A stretch of DNA of 64,000 bases from Pseudomonadota bacterium. Lineage in GTDB: Bacteria > Pseudomonadota > Gammaproteobacteria > Burkholderiales > Sulfuriferulaceae. Below, piece after piece: positions 985 through 10,746 of the stretch. The stretch is from NCBI GenBank assembly GCA_021795395.1, contig JAJYPN010000003.1, positions 1 through 64,000 of the forward strand, in the 5' to 3' direction. Below the pieces are notes generated by a model. That model was not told the origin of the DNA, ran no database searches, and was given only the letters and a program-made list of their open reading frames with translations. The position numbers were made by a program, and so were the translations under genes. Numbering within the stretch: position 1 is the first letter of the stretch; every line of letters starts with the position of its first letter.

Positions 985-1164
985 AGTACAGTTGCAAAGT
1001 TATGATACCAAAAAAGGTTCTTGATAGGGGGCGCGAACATCGATAATTCTGGCGATGCTGAGATCGGAATATGCTGGATTTGTTTAAAAATATCAATATT
1101 TTCAAAGCGTTGTGTTGTGCGCGAACTCATCTGGGTTTTGCCGCCGCTCAGGGTTCGCGCGTAG
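985..1164 (-). promoter_or_regulatory. CRISPR leader region
   Basis: This is the gap of about 180 bp between the last repeat and the cas2 stop codon. By position it should hold the leader, the array promoter and the integration site for new spacers. It is AT-richer than the array, especially at 985-1110. No clear -35/-10 pair was assigned, and the short ORFs across it look like chance. Confidence 0.6.
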
Positions 1165-1461
1165 CTATATGACCAAGGGAGCATTGAAGTCGATAGCTCG
1201 TACATTTCCGAATTCCTTGACGTGCAAATCAGTTGGTTCAGTCAGGCGATATAGCCGTAAGCTATCTTCCTTTTCGTTGATTTCCGCGAGTAAACGGCGT
1301 TCTAGTTCCTCGAATTCCATCAGATTAACCCTGCATTCGAATACCGATTTCTGCACTCGTTGCCCGGTACTTTCGCATACTTTGGCGACGCGGCGTAAAC
1401 GTTTCCTGCCTGCTGGGGTATCGGTTGAAACATCGTAAGTTATTATGATCAACATATTCAT
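1165..1461 (-). CDS. cas2: CRISPR-associated endonuclease Cas2
   Basis: A 98-residue protein of usual Cas2 length. It begins with a hydrophobic first strand and the conserved Asp (IITYDVS, about residues 6-12), followed by the RRVAKVCE and VQKSVFEC segments typical of the ferredoxin-like Cas2 fold. Cas2 is the dimeric core of the Cas1-Cas2 integrase that inserts new spacers at the leader end. The start overlaps the cas1 stop in an ATGA arrangement, so translation is likely coupled. It is the last gene before the leader. A second ATG two codons in is an alternative start. Confidence 0.96.
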
Positions 1462-2492
1462 TTCGCGAGAAAAGGTAAATAAACTTCCATCTCGCCTCGA
1501 ATGACGCGAGCCATGAAGCGGGCCTGTAACAGGGGGAGCAATCCAAGCGGGATTTTGGTTTCGAGCAAGGGATGCATGATTTCTTCCTGCTTACGTTCTT
1601 GATAAGCTACCACTACAGTGCGGCGTGCATCGTCTTCGAGCAGCACTGCACCGCCTTCCCGTTCGGCAAAATCGTTGGCACCGATTTGTCCCCGGTTAAT
1701 TAAAGTAAGTGCCAACCGGTCAGCAAATATGGCACGAAATTCTTCCATCAGGTCCAGCGCAAGCGCTGCTCTCCCTGGACGTATCGCATGTAGAAATCCC
1801 AATTGCGGGTCAAGCCCGACGCTTTCCAGGGCAGATCGGCAGTCGTTCATCAACATCGAATACAAAAATGAAATCAGTGCATTAAAACGGTCTCTCGGCG
1901 GCCGTCGGGTGCGCCCGTCCATCGTGAAGCTATCACGTGCCTCTTGCTTGACCAAAAACGGCAAAGCTGTGAAATAATTTTTCGCTGCGTCGCCCTCTAT
2001 GCCGCGCACAGAATCCAGGTCGCCCGACAGCGGAAGATTGCGGAGGGAAATCGCCAGCGATTCCGCAACCCTGCTTAATATTTCCCGATCCGCATCATTA
2101 ACGGATTCCCGCGCGCCACGCAAAACGACCTGTCGGGAATTGCGGATTTTTCCGGCAATCGCGGAACGTGCGATTGCCAGCGTAAATGGCTCATTCAATG
2201 CCTGACGATACTGCGCTTGACGCAACAGAATATTTCCAGAAACAGCTCCTTCCAGTCGGGCTTTGAAACGTCCGTTGCGGTCGAGGAAAACCAGAGAAAT
2301 TCCTTCATCGGCGCAGCGGCACATTAACGCAGGGGAAACCAGAATGTCGCCGAAACATACTACACTACCGAGGTGGTGCAGCGGCACCCGCAGTTTCGTC
2401 TCGCGTTCCACCTCTATCCGTACCGTGTCGTTCTCCAGATGAAGATAAGACTGTGGCGTCATGACGTAAAGGGTGTTAAGTATCTGGCGCAT
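1458..2492 (-). CDS. cas1: CRISPR-associated integrase Cas1 (type I-C)
   Basis: A 344-residue Cas1 of normal length for subtype I-C. The metal-binding active-site residues are visible: Glu in [12 protein letters not shown] (about residue 166), His in [10 protein letters not shown] (about 235) and Asp in ALDLMEEF (about 249). It catalyses integration of protospacers into the array together with Cas2. The gene starts nine bases after the aspartic protease stop, with only a weak GAAG ribosome site, so it probably depends on read-through or coupling from upstream. Its end overlaps cas2 by four bases. Confidence 0.97.
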
Positions 2493-2501
2493 GCTACTTC
2501 G

Positions 2502-2882
2502 CTATTTTACGGTTGCGGTAGGAATGTTCGGGCTTTCCGGGTTGACCGTCAACTTTTGTTTGGAAGGATGAACGATCAAGTCCATATCTTCCATCGGAAT
2601 CGCCCCCATCAGAACGCCGTCCCCCAGCACTAACGCGCCGGTGTAGCAATGTCGTCCATGAAATTCCACAGTAACCGGCCCTACATAGGCGCAAAGTTGC
2701 CGTCTGCCATCAGCAGTCACCACTTCGCGTTGTTCCAGCTCGCATAATTGAAGTTGTAGCGCAACATGCTCGGGGATGCACAAATGCACGGCGCCGGTAT
2801 CCACCAGTGCGGATATTTCGAGTTCGTCCAGTTTTGGATTCGCCGGATTGCCAAGCCGGATATCGGCATATATGAGTCCCAT
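2502..2882 (-). CDS. Retropepsin-like (clan AA) aspartic protease inside the cas operon
   Basis: A 126-residue protein with the hallmark of single-domain clan AA aspartic proteases: a hydrophobic strand leading into the catalytic ALVDTGA motif (residues 25-31), and a C-terminal MGAIPMEDMDLIVHP stretch (about 92-106) resembling the second hydrophobic-glycine psi-loop motif of retropepsins. Such enzymes act as homodimers, each subunit giving one Asp. No signal peptide or membrane segment is seen, so it should be cytoplasmic. It sits between cas4 and cas1 on the same strand, with GGAG eight bases before the ATG and only nine bases to cas1, so it is co-transcribed with the adaptation genes. This is not a standard type I-C component. 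The substrate is unknown. Confidence 0.82.
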   Translation of the reverse strand: MGLIYADIRLGNPANPKLDELEISALVDTGAVHLCIPEHVALQLQLCELEQREVVTADGRRQLCAYVGPVTVEFHGRHCYTGALVLGDGVLMGAIPMEDMDLIVHPSKQKLTVNPESPNIPTATVK

Positions 2883-2912
2883 GTTTATCTCCAGTAGATG
2901 GTGTTGAAGATT

Positions 2913-3563
2913 CTAACCCGCTTCGGGTTCGAACAACTGATTAGACAATGCCCGATATTTTGAGCGATTTGCAACTGCTTCCGGCTGACAAATTTCCTTC
3001 AGTGAGCATTCCTTGCACCGTTTATCGTTAACTGGAGACGGTAATTGACCGGAATCCAGCATGGTGCGGATGGCGTTCACGGTATCGGTAACTTGATTGC
3101 GCAAAGCTTGCGTAATCATTACCTCACGCCTGCGCCGTGAACCATGGTGGTAAATCGCGCCATGCGTGATAATTTTCCCTGTCATTTCTTCCAGGCACAG
3201 CGCTTGCGCGGCGAGTTGAATGTCGTCGTGGGATTTTTCGCGCTTTTTGCCATGCTTGTATTCGACAGGATAAATGCTTCCATCTGGATGAAATTCAACC
3301 ACATCGCATTTGCCTATTAGACCCAATCGCTCCGACCAAACCGGCAATGCCCGTTCGGTACGCACCCTTTCAAAGGTTTCAAATCCCGGGTTATCCACCC
3401 GTTCGTGCGCTGCATTTCCGCGCATGGTGTGGACATTCTCATCGAATGCCTGTTCAACATGAATCAATGCGCACTGGCGCGGACAATAACTCCAGTGCTG
3501 GAGCGCGGAGAGCATGAGTGGATCGGGGGGCGGCAAAGAGCGAGCATGTTCAAGGTCGTCCAT
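2913..3563 (-). CDS. cas4: CRISPR-associated exonuclease Cas4
   Basis: A RecB-family nuclease of 216 residues. The iron-sulfur cysteines are seen as YCPRQC near the N-terminus (Cys27, Cys31) and CKECSLKEIC near the C-terminus. The nuclease core shows GKCDVVEF and YPVEYKHGKK, the acidic and lysine motifs of the RecB/Cas4 fold, followed by a Gln-rich QLAAQAL helix. Cas4 trims and selects PAM-proximal ends of prespacers with Cas1-Cas2. I chose the ATG at 3563 because AAGGGAGAG lies about six bases upstream; an in-frame ATG at 3602 has no such site. The start overlaps the end of the nucleotidyltransferase gene by 14 bases. Confidence 0.93.
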   Translation of the reverse strand: MDDLEHARSLPPPDPLMLSALQHWSYCPRQCALIHVEQAFDENVHTMRGNAAHERVDNPGFETFERVRTERALPVWSERLGLIGKCDVVEFHPDGSIYPVEYKHGKKREKSHDDIQLAAQALCLEEMTGKIITHGAIYHHGSRRRREVMITQALRNQVTDTVNAIRTMLDSGQLPSPVNDKRCKECSLKEICQPEAVANRSKYRALSNQLFEPEAG

Positions 3564-3909
3564 GCAATACTCTCCCTTCACGGTGAGCCCTGCCAACAAC
3601 ATGGTTCAAGGAATTTTTCCAGTGATCGAATTCTTCCCGGCTGTACAGGAGAATATCCTTGGAAATCGCCAGGCTTCTTAATGCCATATACAAGCGAGCA
3701 GCTTCCTTGCGACGGCTGCGCTGGGGAGAAAACGGCTCGGTTTCCACTACGAGCAAGTCAACATCGGAATCAGGTCGTGCATCGCCTCGCTCACGAGAGC
3801 CAAAGAAAATAATTATCTCCGGGGAAACTTCACGAACGATGGTTTCCACCATTTGGTGTAGCAGGGCTACTTCATTGGCAACCATGTCGCCGTGTTCCAT
3901 TGTCGTCAT
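3550..3909 (-). CDS. MNT-type minimal nucleotidyltransferase
   Basis: A 119-residue protein with the nucleotidyltransferase signature IIFFGSRERG followed by DSDVDLLVV (residues about 34-55), where the GSR turn and the two Asp of DxD bind nucleotide and metal. The C-terminal HREGRVLHGR tail is typical of minimal MNT proteins. In many bacteria MNT is the antitoxin that AMPylates a HEPN RNase toxin encoded next to it. No HEPN gene is present here: the next gene is cas4, overlapping by 14 bases. It overlaps the upstream PIN gene in an ATGA arrangement. It could be an orphan antitoxin, a modifier of the PIN or Cas proteins, or a remnant of a HEPN/MNT pair. Confidence 0.85.
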   Translation of the reverse strand: MTTMEHGDMVANEVALLHQMVETIVREVSPEIIIFFGSRERGDARPDSDVDLLVVETEPFSPQRSRRKEAARLYMALRSLAISKDILLYSREEFDHWKNSLNHVVGRAHREGRVLHGRP

Positions 3910-4310
3910 TCCCCGAAAGGGTTAAGGATTTGCAGCGTCGGCGTAACCCACAAGCCGTGGTGCATATCTTCGCTGTAAAGTGTGCCGCAACCGGCTCGCA
4001 ATGCTGTCGCCACAATCAGCGCATCCCAGTGAGAAAGCGAATACTGGCGTGTCAGTTCGATGGCCTGCTGTATATCTTGTGGTTCGAGCGAGGTCACCTC
4101 GCAACTCTCCATCAAAAAAATCGCCACCCCTTGCGCGGCAGCAAGCGGGCGCTTGAGTTTGCGCACCTGTACATTGATTGTTTCGTTGACCACTTGCACA
4201 CTGATGACAGGGCGCTGAAGCAACAATTCCATCGCTATCGTGTATTGAGGCAAGGTTGCATTCAAGCCATAAATTACGACATTGCTATCAACGAAAACCT
4301 TATCGGTCAT
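3906..4310 (-). CDS. PIN-domain ribonuclease toxin (VapC-like)
   Basis: A 134-residue single PIN domain. The acidic residues expected for metal binding are visible: Asp8 in VFVDSNVVIYG, Glu in the VVNETINV helix (about 43), Asp96 in LSHWDALIVATAL and Asp in LYSEDMHHG (about 115). VapC-type toxins cut tRNA or rRNA and stop growth until neutralised by their antitoxin. The gene begins 11 bases inside the end of a small antitoxin-like gene and overlaps the MNT gene by four bases, a compact toxin-antitoxin layout. It is embedded between cas7 and cas4. Confidence 0.9.
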   Translation of the reverse strand: MTDKVFVDSNVVIYGLNATLPQYTIAMELLLQRPVISVQVVNETINVQVRKLKRPLAAAQGVAIFLMESCEVTSLEPQDIQQAIELTRQYSLSHWDALIVATALRAGCGTLYSEDMHHGLWVTPTLQILNPFGE

Positions 4311-4509
4311 ACAACTCGTCCCGATTAAATTTCAGGTCGGTAGTTGATATCTGATGCTTGGCAAAGAACGTTTCAATTTCTTTGCGCCGCTGTTCAATTG
4401 ACTCGTATGGCACCGGCACCACCATAATTTCAACCGGATGGTTAAGGAAAGATTCTGGAATCTCTACCGTTACGGTACGTTCGGTTGGTGTGAAAGTATG
4501 AATGAACAT
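4300..4509 (-). CDS. Antitoxin-like protein (VapB-type) paired with the PIN toxin
   Basis: A 69-residue protein. The N-terminal half (TVTVEIPESFLNHPVEIMVV) looks like the small beta DNA-binding half of VapB-type antitoxins. The C-terminal KFNRDELYDR motif resembles the toxin-binding tail of many such antitoxins. I chose the ATG at 4509, which has AGGAAA about nine bases upstream, over an in-frame ATG at 4713 that would run through the likely promoter. It overlaps the PIN gene by 11 bases. It probably neutralises the PIN protein and represses its own promoter, as VapB proteins do; here that promoter would also feed MNT, cas4, the protease, cas1 and cas2. Confidence 0.72.
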   Translation of the reverse strand: MFIHTFTPTERTVTVEIPESFLNHPVEIMVVPVPYESIEQRRKEIETFFAKHQISTTDLKFNRDELYDR

Positions 4510-4640
4510 GGTGCCATTTCCTTTTGTGCTAAATATATAGTCGAACAACAAATTCATGCGAAGAATTCGGGTGCATCGGGTTGCTGTCTGGTTCTCGTCG
4601 AAATGGCGATGTGTCGCGCCCGGCACCATCGAGCATAACT

Positions 4641-4653
4641 TTATACAGTATAA
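4641..4653. promoter_or_regulatory. 13-bp palindrome, candidate autoregulatory operator
   Basis: The sequence TTATACAGTATAA is a perfect palindrome around its centre base. It lies in the 200-bp gap between cas7 and the antitoxin gene, about 130 bp upstream of the antitoxin start. The half-sites also look like -10 boxes (TATACT and TATAAA on the minus strand), so it may overlap a promoter. Toxin-antitoxin complexes usually bind such inverted repeats. The gap also contains a leftward 5' untranslated region; no terminator was seen. Confidence 0.45.
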
Positions 4654-4709
4654 TCCGCAAAATCTCGTGGGCGGCAATACCTCATTGAGTTTAGGCTGAA
4701 TACGGGCAA

Positions 4710-5558
4710 TCAAAACCCTTCGATGATTTCAGGCTTAAGGCCTTCCAGTTCCCCAAGCTCGAAGCTACCATCAGGCTGAATCGTCTCTTGAAGCGTCCGA
4801 TGTACTTTGGCTGAGGAATGCTGGCCTGATTTGCAGTTGTGTTTCCACCAAATTACTTTCAGTATTTCCATACTTCCCGCTGGCCTAGCGGATGACTCAT
4901 CGTTCTCGATTAGCTTTGGAAGCAACTGCTTGATGGTTTCGGCATCGGCATCGCTGAATCCTGTTCGTTCAGCCAGCTGCGGATTTATGCTGCCATAGAA
5001 AACATAAACGCCTTTATCAACCCTGTGTTTCATGCCCATTGTGTCGGAACCGCGCTTGCTTCCGTCGCCCTCGCCGCTAACGCTTTTGGTGATCTGTGTG
5101 CTGCTGACATCGACTGGTTCCACGCTGAATGCAGATTGAACAGTGACAGGGCCGCGAATGCCAATGGATACGCCGCTATCGCCTTCGGTGTCAGTATCCT
5201 TTTTCTTCTTGTCAGCCTTAAATGCAAAAAGCTGACCAAATGCACGAACGTCAAACCATTGCTCACACGCCAACTTGGCTGTTTCGCTTGAGCCCAGTTT
5301 TTTGCCAAGCGCGGCATCTGCTCTTGCCTTGAGGCTCTTGAAATCGTCATTTTTTCGATCATCGGACTGTACAAAAATGTTTTGCCCGCTTTCCAATAGC
5401 CTGTCTCTGAGCTTACGTTTAATACATACATCAGTAATTTCTCCGTACCCGTCATAGTCTGCGCGTGGGCGATTACCGTTAAGCGGATCACCGTTAGGAT
5501 TGGCGTGTGTGACGCGAAGAACAACGGCAAAGTCGATTTTGTTTTGCAATGTGCTCAT
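4710..5558 (-). CDS. cas7c: Cascade backbone protein Cas7 (Csd2, type I-C)
   Basis: A 282-residue Cas7 of the Csd2/Csh2 family. Visible marks are the N-terminal RVTHANPNGDPLNGNRPR stretch, VCIKRKLRDR, and IGIRGPVTVQSAFSVEPV, all characteristic of the RRM-fold Cas7 that forms the crRNA-binding filament of Cascade. AAGGA lies seven bases before the ATG, and the start is ten bases after the cas8c stop, so it is in one operon with cas3, cas5 and cas8c. A Lys/Asp-rich loop (KKKKDTDTEG) occurs mid-protein. Confidence 0.96.
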   Translation of the reverse strand: MSTLQNKIDFAVVLRVTHANPNGDPLNGNRPRADYDGYGEITDVCIKRKLRDRLLESGQNIFVQSDDRKNDDFKSLKARADAALGKKLGSSETAKLACEQWFDVRAFGQLFAFKADKKKKDTDTEGDSGVSIGIRGPVTVQSAFSVEPVDVSSTQITKSVSGEGDGSKRGSDTMGMKHRVDKGVYVFYGSINPQLAERTGFSDADAETIKQLLPKLIENDESSARPAGSMEILKVIWWKHNCKSGQHSSAKVHRTLQETIQPDGSFELGELEGLKPEIIEGF

Positions 5559-5568
5559 GATGTCTTCC

Positions 5569-7539
5569 TTAATTGATTTTGGCAGCGGTGGTTTCAGTAT
5601 TTTCGTCTTGTTCCGTTTCGGGCTTGGCTCGGAGTGCCTGTCGTTGGCAGTGATAACCTAGCAAAAACTCACCCGACAGCTTTCTGTCTTCCATAAAATC
5701 ATCTGCCTGAAATAAATTCACCACCTCATCAAGCTGTTTTTCCATAATGGCGAGAAATGCCGGACGTCTGGCTCGTAAACGTGTTTTGTATGGACTTAAT
5801 GAAAGCTCAATCGTTCTCCATGTTGAAAACGGGTGATCTGCAAAACGTTGCATCAGTTTTGCGGCACTGGTATCACGTCTCTCATCGGCAACATGCAACG
5901 CTCGATCTTCGACGTTTTCCGCAATCGCCAGAAGTCGGCCATACAAGTAATCGCGGCTGGTCCGATTCAGTTCTAATGCCATTTGGTAATCCTCTTTTTT
6001 GTGATAGCCCTTAAATAAGGCACAGGCAATGCCCAGTGCTTTTTCCCACTCATCCTCATATGTTTTGCCATTGCGTTTTTTTCTTTCCATGCCTAATCTG
6101 TTGCAAGCTCTTCTGGTTACTGATTCCATCAAATCACGAGGAATTAATTGCCCATCAATAATGCAAGGCAGTAAACGCTCTACTGTTGCATTGCGCAGTT
6201 TCTCATTCAATCTGCGACCAAAAGCAGCTTCGGCAATATCTTTGGGCGCAGGTGCGCCGATAAATTTCATTTCCTTGCCAAAGTCCTGACCATAATTTTG
6301 ATACCAAGCATGGTCTTTATGCCATACTTCAATCCTCTCAAGAAACTCAGAACACCCAAGTTCCCGATAGTAGGTTATTGCCATGCGGCCCGGGGTGGCC
6401 GAATCCAGGCCCATAACAACAATCTCGTTGGTGAAACCGAGTTCTGCCCGATATCCGGCAAGGAGCTTTGCAAGCCGCTTACCAAAGGCTTGAGCTGCAT
6501 CACCTTGATGCTCATGTATTTGTGTATTTTCTGTATTTTCTGATTCAATACTAAATAGCTCAAAAGAATTGTCTGTTGGGGCAGGTATCCGTTTGCCGGA
6601 TACAGCCCACGCAACTACAGCTTGATCGCCATTTCGGTAAGCTTGGCGTGCAATTAGCCAGCGCAAAGCGTTGTGCGCCTTTTGCGTGACCTCGAAGCCT
6701 AGACCGCAGGCTTGGGCTGCATCAATAAATCTTCCTCGAAACGTGAAACCGCTAGTATCGTTGGATGAAATAAATTTGGCTTTATCCGCGCCATGTCTGA
6801 GTTTGGCGGGATGTTGCTCTGCCAAATTCAGAATTTTACCTGTGACCAAACAAAGCCCTTTACTATCTTTTTGGCTGCTGTAGAAACCAATCCAGGCATC
6901 TATCAAACTCTGATCTTTCCAGGTTTCTGGCAAGGGTTCGTTGGGTATTTCCACCCGCCAGCGAATGACTGCTCCATCGGGTGAGTTGCCATTGGGCATG
7001 ATGTCGAAAATCGCGGGCGTTTCTTTTTTGTCGCCTACCCACTTTGCCAGCAACTGACCATCCTCATTGATGGGCAAGATTTTTTCTCGCACAAGGTCGT
7101 GAATTAAATTTCCTTTCTGCACATAAGTTTGAATCGCGATTATTTTGGGATGCGTAAAAGAAGTGTTCGTCCAATCGGACAAATTAGATAGGTAAGTAGC
7201 GTGGGGTTCTGTTGGTGTGCCTGCAAACCCTGATGTCACTACACCGCCAAACTTGAGGAAGTCACCCGCAAGATATTGCAGCTTGTCACATAATGGATGA
7301 TTGCTGGGTTTGCTTCCAGCCCGTCCAGCAGATGCTTCTGTGCATGGCACCAGCGTCACTCCTTGCCCTTTTGGAATTACATTGGCACGTAAGAAGCGAC
7401 CTTTATCGTCAAGGCTTACCTCGATGTGAGCCTGTTGGGAGGTGTGGCATATTGGTTCCAGCGATGACCCACTATTCGACAAGTCAGTTCGATCAGCACA
7501 CTGCTCATACGTATCATAGAGTTTCTGAATCCAGCTCAC
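5569..7539 (-). CDS. cas8c: Cascade large subunit Cas8c (Csd1)
   Basis: A 656-residue Csd1-family protein, near the usual 580-660 range. The N-terminus ([10 protein letters not shown]) and the [14 protein letters not shown] segment fit the family. Cas8c recognises the PAM and, in type I-C, its mRNA is known to give an internally translated C-terminal Cas11c subunit. The start is GTG at 7539 with GGAGG seven bases upstream, overlapping the cas5 stop (GTGA). The ORF contains internal Met codons in its last third, but I could not assign the Cas11c start from sequence alone. Confidence 0.95.
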
Positions 7540-8267
7540 GTCATATCCTCCAATGACAATGGTTCTTCTTTTTCTACGCCAAGAAGATTCTGTCCACGCT
7601 CAAATTTCTTCATGGGCATTTCTCTGATGGGCTTACGGACTTTGCAGTCCTCAGGACGAGTAAATCGAATCACGCCATTTGTCATCGTGGGTTGCCAAAA
7701 ACGAGCATGAAGTTTGTTGTCGCCAGTTTCGTCAGGGTAATCAAATCCATGAAACATGAGACCATAAGCAAGTTCGTCATCGGTGTCGTAAGCTCCTTCA
7801 CCTGAGCCAAACTTGCAGGGTTCGACATAACCTTGACAGTCACGGGTGCCAAGAAAAATGTCTTGGCGTCCGCCTCGTTCCAGCATACGTTTGGCGACGA
7901 TGTGATGTTTGGCTTCGTTGTGGTCTTCCGCCAGTTCAGGCCGGTGCATATTCCATTCAAAATGCGCTTTCACCTGATATTCAACATCCGACAGAAAGGT
8001 GTAGATCGCCAAGGTGTTGCCACCGCCATATTCCAATGGTTTTGTGCCTTTGGTCTGAGTACGAATACGCTTCATCACCCGAACTTCGTCAATCACCCAA
8101 ACAATAGTGGGCTTCCAGTAGATCGACTTGGTAACACCTTTGAGCGCCTCGTAAGTTGGAATATGGTAGGAACATTTCTCGCCGCCGATTTTTGTCAAAG
8201 GGTCAGTGAAGAGGGCGAATCGCCCCCACACCTTGAATTCAATGTTGCTTCTTCTGAAATCAGACAC
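7536..8267 (-). CDS. cas5c: Cas5d (Cas5c), crRNA-processing endoribonuclease
   Basis: A 243-residue Cas5 of subtype I-C. The start [13 protein letters not shown] and [15 protein letters not shown] match the RRM-fold Cas5d family. In type I-C, Cas5d replaces Cas6 and cuts pre-crRNA at the base of the repeat hairpin. Tyr50 and Lys120/His121 lie where the catalytic Tyr, Lys and His of characterised Cas5d enzymes are expected. The start is GTG at 8267, with GGAGG six bases upstream, inside the end of cas3 (8-base overlap). It overlaps cas8c by four bases. Confidence 0.95.
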
Positions 8268-10746
8268 AGTGAACCTCCATTTTTCCTTCTGGGATTAAGC
8301 TCAACCCGAAATCTTCGTTGTAGTAGCGTGCATCTGCAAGATAGAGAATATCCACCCCTGTTTGTATTTCATGCAAGATTTTTTCGTCTAGGAACTTTTT
8401 CATCTGCTGAGGAAATACGTTGACAGTATATTGTTGCGCCCGGCGCAAAAGTTTAAATTGGTTTTCAACCTCGTATGCCCCGCAAAGTTCGCCAATCAAG
8501 TTTTTGCCCTCAATTCCGTAGGGAACGATAACGCCCCGAGTTGGCGCATCAATCGACTTAAAAGCATTGGCAGCGGCCATGAATGACTGACGAAGATATA
8601 GATTGAAAGGCTTACCCTGACAACGGTGAAATTCCTCAACTGCATTGATATTGCCGGCAAGCAGATTTAGCAGAGTATCGTCATGCCCCAGCACCTTATT
8701 GCTTATCGGGTAATCCATTTCGCCACGACGTTCCGCAAAATAGTAGTTGAAGTAGCACGTTATAGCAGTCGGCCCAAGCAAGTCGTTGTCAAACCGAGCT
8801 GGGTCTTTTTCAAATTCGTCGAGAAGCCGCTCCGTAACGCGCTGCCCACAAGCTATGTCCACGAGCATATCCACTTGCTCTTCGCTGAGATTGACGATAT
8901 GAACATGCCCAATATCCCGCAGCCCGTTCCGGTTGCATCTACCCGCCGCCTGGGCAATGGAGTCCAGCCCTGCAACTGAACGAATAACGGCACCGAAATC
9001 TACATCCACGCCAGCTTCAATTAACTGGGTGCTGACGCATAATATTCGCTCTTTGGCTTCAAGGCGTTGCCGGATTTCTGCCAAAATTGCGCGCCGGTGA
9101 GCTGGGCACATGCTCGTGCTCAGGTGGTAAATCGGCATGGCTGTCTCCATGTCGTGGCATAATTGAAATATTGTTTGAGCCGATTTCTTGGTATTGACGA
9201 TCACCAAGCAACTATTGGCTTGTTTGGCTTCTTCCATTGCAAGAGTTGCGACTTCCTTATCTGACCAGCCTCCAGGCTTTCTTCGATTGAGAACTCTGAC
9301 TCGTTTGAGCTTTCTGAAAAGCTCGCCCACATCAGGCATGATTTCATTGTCCGGTGGAATGCGTAGCGCGCCTTTAGATTGCTCAACCATGTTCATGAGT
9401 GGTTGGGTTGCTGTACACAACACTACTGTCGTGCCGCAGCGCTCAACAAGGAAATTGATAGCGTTACAGAAGAGATGGATGCAATTGATAGGGAGGGTCT
9501 GTATTTCATCAAAAACCAATACAGCATTCGCCAGTTGATGCAGACGACGTGGCCCGCGTGTACCAGCGCCAAACAGCGTCTCAAGCATCTGTACATTGGT
9601 GGTGTAAATAATTGGCGCATCCCAATTTTCGACCAACATTTTGGTTTTCCAATTTTCTTCTTCGGGCATGAGGTTTGAATGGTGCTCAAGCACAATGCCG
9701 TTAGACTGCACACCATCCGGCTCAAGAATTTTCCGAACGACATCCGCGTTCTGGTCAATGATGGAAGTAAATGGAATAGCGTAAATTATTCGTTCCATCA
9801 TGTTTTTTTCCGCGTGATGTAAGGCAAAGCGCAAACTAGCGAGTGTCTTACCTCCGCCTGTAGGGACCGTCAGAGTGTAGATGCCCTTTTCATTCTCTGC
9901 CTTGTCACGACAATGCTGAGAAATATTAACGCGAAGCACGTCGATAGGTTTGTTGGCGGCAAAACTTGATAGGTGGCTATCAAGTCGAGTTATCAAGTGC
10001 GACCATTCACCATATTGCCCGTGTTGCCTGGCCTTTGCAGCGTGTGGCTTCTCAAAATCCGCACTGTTGGTACGGTCGGCATCAATCAGGCAACTGAATA
10101 GATAGCGAACAAGCAGCCCCACTTTAAACCGGACGATCTGTTCATCCCCGCGCTTTTTCTCCAACTCCGCAATTTGTTGGAGAGATTTTGTAAGGCCATC
10201 TACGACCTCTGGGTTGTTCACCAATTCACGAAAGCGCGCCTCAATGGTTTTGTCCATCTTGGCGATAGCCTCCCGAAAATGAGTGAATTCATCGTGCTTT
10301 GTAATTCGTTTTGTAAAACGGTCTTCGCCAAAGCTGTTGGTGTCAGAAGATAGGCAATCAATCAAACCGGAATGGTGAGAGGCAATGCACAAGGATAGCA
10401 TCTGCCCAACAATGGGCCCCATTTTGCCGCGAGGGGAAAGTTCCCGCCAAACGAGCTGTGCGCCAGCCGTGGAATGATCCACCTTCCCTTTTTGGCTTTT
10501 TGCATCAACATAGTTGTCTTCGTCCTGTTCGATCAAACCAACCGCAGATTTCAGATAAGCTTGAAACTCCTCGCTGTACTTACCCAAATCATGGAGCAAG
10601 CCAATCAATTCCCCCTGTTCATGCAAGCCGATTTTGGCTGCTAGTGACTGCGCAATCCTTGAGACCCCAAGTAGATGGTTTTCCAGGCTTTGGACGACCC
10701 CATCAGACTTTCGTTGATGCGCGATGTAGAGAGTGGTTTTGTTCAT
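8260..10746 (-). CDS. cas3: Cas3 helicase-nuclease (HD plus DExH)
   Basis: An 828-residue fused Cas3. The HD nuclease is seen as His24, LLHDLGK (residues 50-56), His91 and SHHSG (123-127). The superfamily 2 helicase has Walker A PTGGGKT (295-301), Walker B VFDEIQ (411-416), TATQP (445-449) and motif [12 protein letters not shown] (599-608). It is recruited by Cascade to unwind and degrade target DNA. It is the first gene of the effector part of the operon. The ATG at 10746 has no good ribosome site of its own; a mini-ORF with a strong site lies just upstream. Confidence 0.97.

Follow-up and report, generated by a model that had tools for sequence, protein, structure and literature searches.

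The type I-C CRISPR-Cas operon at the start of this 64,000-nucleotide stretch (the window) contains a small gene for a retropepsin-like aspartic protease between cas4 and cas1, which raises the question of whether the protease is part of the CRISPR machinery or is merely carried by it. The operon lies on the minus strand in the order cas3 (8260-10746, assigned by eye from its position and the translation of the ORF), cas5c (7536-8267, TIGR01876), cas8c (Csd1; 5569-7539, TIGR01863), cas7 (Csd2; 4710-5558, TIGR02589), a small ORF (4300-4509) that by its position is perhaps an antitoxin gene and had no match in the family scans, a PIN-domain toxin-like gene (3906-4310; PIN, 4.8e-12), an MNT-type nucleotidyltransferase gene (3550-3909; NTP_transf_2, 2.5e-9), cas4 (2913-3563, TIGR00372; the longest ORF begins at 3602 and the ATG at 3563 is assumed), the protease gene (2502-2882), cas1 (1458-2492; Cas1c, TIGR03640, 512.5 bits) and cas2 (1165-1461, TIGR01573). 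The CRISPR array (17-984, given without strand) has 14 exact 37-bp repeats in the window, touches the window edge and may continue beyond it. The PIN and MNT genes, cargo of the cas7-cas4 junction, are 0.7-1.4 kb from the protease gene and overlap each other by 4 bp; the MNT-type gene also overlaps the start of cas4 and has no apparent HEPN partner. The protease gene is on the same strand as both of its neighbors, 9 bp from cas1 and 30 bp from cas4; the latter gap (2883-2912) holds a Shine-Dalgarno-like GGAGAT just upstream of the ATG start of the protease. G+C content is 0.528 in the protease gene, 0.529 in cas1 and 0.515 in cas4. A promoter and terminator scan of positions 1000-5800 returned one promoter-like site (1068-1096), with site numbers not above those of shuffled sequences.

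The encoded protein of 126 amino acids matches NCBIfam TIGR03698 ('clan AA aspartic protease') with 73.0 bits (cut-off 57.35) over model positions 2-107 of 107, whereas the matches to Pfam Asp_protease_2 (24.5 bits, cut-off 24.3) and gag-asp_proteas (26.9 bits, below the cut-off of 28.2) are weak. The catalytic DTG (residues 28-30, codons at 2793-2801) is intact. In an alignment of 104 sequences the Asp is kept in 103, Thr or Ser in 103 and Gly in 99: G30 is changed in five sequences, D28 in one and residue 29 in one (to Met). Six residues (H39, Q43, L44, R77, G87 and G93) are invariant; the last of these (104/104) closes an LMG triplet (2604-2612) in the second half of the retropepsin fold, which we take to be the hydrophobic-hydrophobic-Gly motif. 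The C-terminal tail (residues 114-126) is also conserved. An AlphaFold2 monomer model built on an input alignment of 56 sequences has a mean pLDDT of 93.2, and its best solved-fold match is the XMRV protease (3sm1_B; Z 11.8, rmsd 2.5, 103 aligned residues, 15% identity); the best-matching folds are retroviral proteases, Ddi1 domains and the Rickettsia protease APRc. The window protease is confidently predicted to adopt a single-lobe retropepsin fold. By sequence, a search of solved structures with the alignment gave no match at E values up to 10, and a single-sequence search gave weak matches only (NLRP1 chains, 0.24-0.26; Ddi1, 0.84). No signal peptide is apparent by eye, and the genome has no second copy at E values up to 1. 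The family match, the gaps, the gene order and the predicted fold thus bear out the starting observation of the original prediction, namely that a small clan AA protease with an intact DTG lies nine bases before cas1 and after cas4, in the adaptation module of a type I-C system.

The protease was not found at this junction in any of the other I-C loci scored. The phylum sample of 398 genomes contains 25 with a cas1 over the I-C cut-off (TIGR03640); 23 of the 24 loci other than the window have a cas4-cas1 gap of -16 to 12 bp and the remaining one a gap of 299 bp; none (0/24) carries the protease there, nor do the I-C loci of two congeners (0/2). Within the genus, 4 of 18 genomes, the window's included, have a cas1 match, one of which is distant (35% identity). 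The cas4-cas1 junction is empty (2 bp) in congener G007 and is occupied in congener G001 by a PemK/MazF-type toxin gene and an RHH gene on the other strand. Both congeners have a HicA-type toxin gene with a small unplaced partner at the cas7-cas4 junction, where the window has its PIN and MNT genes (cargo at L220:7668-9403 in G001 and L221:3855-4300 in G007; the family scan was run on G001, and the G007 cargo is named by its likeness to it). Since the same junctions hold toxin-antitoxin-type genes, the protease or nothing, the two junctions appear to act as slots for exchangeable cargo, and the congeners represent natural variants of one I-C operon.

A third congener, G009, carries a 120-bp piece of the protease gene, 94% identical at the DNA level, at a contig end (L084:1-806). 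It is followed by what looks like the 3' end of a transposase gene, presumably of the IS30 type, then by a cas2 gene lacking its start and by an array whose repeats are similar; no cas1 is present. The piece apparently derives from the same I-C locus, barring misassembly of the contig, and it seems that cas1 was lost through an insertion-linked deletion or that the contig was misassembled.

Relatives of the protease are widespread and mostly remote from CRISPR loci. A scan of 84,980 species genomes identified 428, of which the best 80 (56-77% identical) were analyzed; these come from Cyanobacteria, Bacteroidota, Acidobacteriota, Proteobacteria and others. None of these best 80 of 428 has cas genes or an array in its available flanks, which extend up to 10 kb and often less, as many contigs end within a few kilobases of the gene; the queries were the I-C, I-D, I-E, III-B, III-D and L185 sets of Cas proteins plus an array finder of our own, which other subtypes may escape, and contigs of metagenome-assembled genomes may be misassembled. 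Starting from 30 of the 80 loci, most of them on longer contigs, 28 genomes were searched, and 14 of these lack a cas1 match, with genome completeness not given. Of 369 genomes of the window's class, 11 give a match over the cut-off; cas1 is on a different contig or was not found in the ten besides the window's own (0/10 with cas1 on the contig of the protease). Since no cas genes were found in the available flanks of the 80 loci and a cas1 match is lacking in half of these 28 genomes, the protease seems not to need an adaptation module.

By single linkage on their neighbors, the best 80 relatives fall into 50 contexts. Neighbors include aconitase B with a histone-deacetylase-type gene, ThiC, MutS, RecQ-type helicases and others, and type I restriction genes adjoin the protease in Cyanobium. 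No neighbor family within three genes of the protease is constant among the relatives' loci, and no constant two-gene pair or antitoxin partner was found, the neighbors varying between loci; proteins matching the window PIN or MNT protein occur in 4 of the 80 loci (L038, L050, L051 and L076). Likewise, the 90 bp upstream of 84 loci and downstream of 81 loci contain no conserved terminal sequences, mobile ends or target motif, the sole shared signal being a weak one at -10/-11 upstream, a position of ribosome binding. No relatives were found in IMG/VR or in phage records, and the plasmid records with relatives (seven) are all from Synechocystis. PADLOC showed no strong enrichment beside known defense genes among 145 neighbors (69 + 76, out of 153, eight spurious-looking frames being left out), with scattered type I and type II restriction-modification matches among those listed (25 of 64 and 25 of 45 families); RecQ-type helicases, scored there as DpdF or PsyrT, were excluded from the defense count. 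A RecQ-like gene directly follows the protease gene, with a 4-bp overlap, in two Methylococcaceae loci (L065:3897-4274 and L072:10001-10378), and one is also found downstream of the acidobacterial copy L005.

The tree of the 104 sequences mixes phyla. The window protein pairs with a Burkholderiales copy, L002 (100/97), that has no cas gene in its available flank, the contig ending at the 3' end of the protease gene. Cyanobacterial copies located in cas operons group apart from the window, with a support (92/59) that is weak by the second measure, and the CRISPR label requires two changes on the tree. A second protein tree places two non-cas copies (L245 and L247) among the cas-operon copies with modest support, which suggests that the gene perhaps entered such operons more than once or was lost from them later; a DNA tree of 18 copies leaves the cyanobacterial group unresolved. 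In hand-picked pairs of relatives dN/dS was computable for 18 of 22 and ranged from 0 to 0.11, with dS over 2 in three of the 18; three of the remaining four pairs, including the window and L002, have saturated dS, and the fourth (L087/L088) has only two differences, both of which change the protein. Pairs of cas-operon copies have values of 0.11 (L185/L196) and 0.08 (L086/L087). Thus, the relatives, including copies in cas operons, are under purifying selection; the window copy lies outside this measure.

Copies inside cas operons were found in Cyanobacteria, in two samples. The first comprises 386 genomes (36 places in 28 genomes) and is centered on a genome, G802, that was picked because it carries the protease gene; the second comprises 340 genomes of one order, partly overlaps the first and adds 15 places. 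The copies in G802 and G820 are also among the best 80 relatives. Five of the 51 places, judged on the available flanks, are inside cas operons: three at the cmr4-cmr3 junction of III-B loci (a G900 plasmid, G933 and G1300) and two at the cas6-cas4 junction of a type I locus (G943 and G969). In all five the cas genes are encoded on the other strand. Among the places of the first sample with about 50% identity or more, 4 of 14 are in cas operons. A rough binomial calculation, made after the data were seen and with cas loci assumed to take up 0.4% of the genome, yields 2.5e-7 (1.0e-3 if the places are collapsed to 2 sites of 12), from few independent events; on these rough odds, the cyanobacterial protease occurs in cas operons more often than by chance. 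In general, insertions may enter defense loci more easily than other parts of the genome. The original prediction is partly supported: the protease does not recur at the cas4-cas1 junction of the 24 other I-C loci scored, but it does recur inside cyanobacterial cas operons at other sites and, as a fragment apparently in the same locus, in G009.

The type I locus of G943 contains cas6, cas4, cas1, cas2 and an array of about 43 repeats, together with (L185:1963-6315) an 861-amino-acid large subunit and Cas7-like and Cas5-like proteins, identified by eye, that have no NCBIfam match at E 0.01; it perhaps represents a poorly modeled subtype. Its own cas4-cas1 junction (L185:11089-11457) holds a lone gene for a four-helix protein of the 23S rRNA-intervening-sequence type (TIGR02436). 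The corresponding locus of G969 is decayed: the protease gene is frameshifted, cas1 is shortened and cas6 is separated from the protease gene by a transposase-like ORF. In three cyanobacteria (L186, L188 and L189), members of a distant subfamily (about 35-45% identical, about 155 amino acids) are located past the array, at a distance of 4-10 kb from cas1; these were left out of the count of copies inside the operon. A tandem pair of proteases of this subfamily, 63 bp apart, is present in G1431 (L256:9363-10229).

The III-B site has a varied history in Synechocystis. Plasmid records of strains PCC 6803, 7338 and 7339 have the protease gene at the junction of annotated cmr4 and cmr3 genes (the G900 plasmid contig C2 is taken to be pSyn7338-1, as the coordinates agree), and in strain B12, where the cmr genes are unannotated, a DNA alignment puts it at this same site. 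B12 and 7338 have DSGA as catalytic motif, but the PCC 6803 copy, closely similar to that of B12, has DSET; in G1300 the motif is DSRA. Plasmid pSYLA of PCC 6714 retains only the first eight codons (MGLVFTEI; L259:3887-3910), between cmr3 and cmr4 and adjoining annotated cas10, cmr3, cmr4 and RAMP genes, and the deletion scar extends into the end of cmr3. This site had looked like one that was empty from the start, but the remaining codons mark a deletion, and no insertion boundary can be read from it. In Picosynechococcus 7002 the cmr genes stand in the same order and the protease gene is absent. Three lineages at the III-B site thus have a changed motif or a deletion of the gene, and the motif changes would be expected to abolish catalysis. 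The III-B system of PCC 6803, the strain with DSET, is reported to be active, so III-B function there probably does not depend on an active protease.

Taken together, the protease is probably an autonomous, horizontally moving single-gene module that rides as a passenger at one of the cargo junctions of the cas operon, with a job of its own and without a part in CRISPR. The relatives are lone genes mostly away from CRISPR loci, and a passenger is therefore likelier than a component of the machinery; this reading rests on the predicted fold and motif, the selection among relatives, the scattered contexts, the lack of a constant partner and the variable cargo of the congeners. The recurrence in cyanobacterial cas operons, the selection on those copies and the piece in G009 count against it. 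Under the passenger reading, the protease, a presumably cytosolic member of the TIGR03698 subfamily, would spread between bacteria as a bare ORF with its own ribosome-binding site and would have settled in the cas4-cas1 slot, where it is probably transcribed with the adaptation genes while having no part in CRISPR. Two 126-residue chains would pair, each contributing one DTG to the active site as in retropepsins, and the dimer may act on a restricted range of substrates, independently of the Cas proteins. Carriage by the operon could be favored because an insertion between one stop codon and the next start does little harm and because mobile defense loci would spread the gene. What remains puzzling is that relatives across phyla are still so similar (among the best 80 of 428), partnerless and in ever different places.

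Alternatively, the protease could act as a toxin-antitoxin-like or abortive-infection module, either harmful in itself or freeing the PIN toxin by cutting its antitoxin, and so guard the operon against loss. Toxin genes are described in immunity operons in passages of Makarova et al. 2012 (PMC3506569); the congeners fill the same two junctions with PemK/MazF- and HicA-type genes, and the window has its own MNT and PIN genes close by. The change of the active-site Gly in 5 of 104 sequences, against six residues that never vary, together with G1300 and several broken copies, would be expected if the activity were costly. However, the low dN/dS speaks against frequent inactivation, and the relatives have neither a constant partner gene nor, in all but four of 80 loci, the window's PIN or MNT type of gene. 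This role is unlikely, and the lack of a constant antitoxin partner likewise gives no support to the proposed processing of a neighboring antitoxin.

Rather unlikely too is a free-standing immune or addiction protease, again a one-gene module spread over many bacterial phyla, that is kept in cas operons as a proteolytic back-up and, for example, cuts a phage protein or closes down the cell upon failure of CRISPR. This reading would account for three kinds of entry site (I-C cas4-cas1, III-B cmr4-cmr3 and type I cas6-cas4) and, if true, would bring an aspartic protease into CRISPR-linked immunity for the first time, judging by the literature searched. In that literature, which leaves most subscription journals outside its coverage, no published CRISPR link of a clan AA or retropepsin-like aspartic protease and no published role for relatives of the protease were found, and the accession TIGR03698 appears in no paper. 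In a paper on pSYSA (PMC9978351), 'peptidase' occurs 0 times and 'protease' in the reference list alone.

A true accessory protease of CRISPR that is expressed together with the adaptation genes and trims or activates Cas4-Cas1-Cas2, or cuts a phage protein during infection, is improbable. It would agree with the same-strand position 9 bp from cas1, with the two further cas-operon sites in III-B and another type I system, with the close kinship of the cyanobacterial cas-operon copies (two non-cas copies stand among them in the second protein tree, though) and with the apparent presence of the piece in the same locus of G009. Set against this are its absence from the 24 other I-C loci scored, the lack of cas genes in the available flanks of the best 80 relatives, the opposite strand of the cyanobacterial cas-operon copies, and the DSET and DSRA motifs and the eight-codon remnant at the III-B site. 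A CRISPR-dedicated role thus has little support, and processing of the Cas1-Cas2-Cas4 complex, one of the functions proposed originally, is not supported: the gene does not recur at the cas4-cas1 junction of the other I-C loci scored, and three III-B lineages have lost it or carry a changed motif. The outcomes that the original prediction named as evidence against itself are largely what was seen: besides this lack of recurrence, the best 80 relatives, spread over 50 contexts, have no cas gene in their available flanks. Finally, that the gene is a decaying, functionless passenger that landed in the operon by chance is very improbable: broken or truncated copies do exist (G969, G1393, G1404, G009 and PCC 6714), but relatives are under purifying selection, and the ORF, motif and ribosome-binding site are intact in the window.

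The variants that occur side by side, namely the empty, toxin-antitoxin-type and protease-bearing I-C operons of the congeners and the intact, motif-altered and deleted copies of Synechocystis III-B loci, make the effect of cas-operon cargo on immunity directly testable.

Among known families, the window protease belongs with clan_AA_DTGF (NCBIfam TIGR03698), whose curated cut-off it exceeds across the whole model; it differs in having DTGA where the model name has DTGF, and in lying inside a cas operon. Its predicted fold (Z 10.2-11.8 among the matches listed) and D-T/S-G motif resemble those of retropepsins (HIV-1, XMRV and FIV) and Ddi1 domains, at about 13-19% identity, but it is a free-standing bacterial gene product, seen here as a monomer model, that is not part of a polyprotein. 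The Rickettsia protease APRc (5c9f), among its fold matches, is also of clan AA. Type III CRISPR systems have protease effectors of another class, the Lon-like CalpL and the caspase-like Craspase; their genes are near cas genes, as in the window, but the 126-residue window protein has no extra domain to bind a second messenger or crRNA. Pseudomonas RimB and RloA are clan AA proteases as well. Passages of the study describing them (PMC12239564) place them in the rim and rlo operons with partners, RimB acting on a product of RimK and RloA having a signal peptide, whereas the window protease has no fixed partner. The closest parallel in position is the toxin-antitoxin cargo of cas operons: the HicA- and PemK/MazF-type genes of the congeners occupy the same junctions, although the window protease, in contrast to them, is a single gene that travels without an antitoxin.
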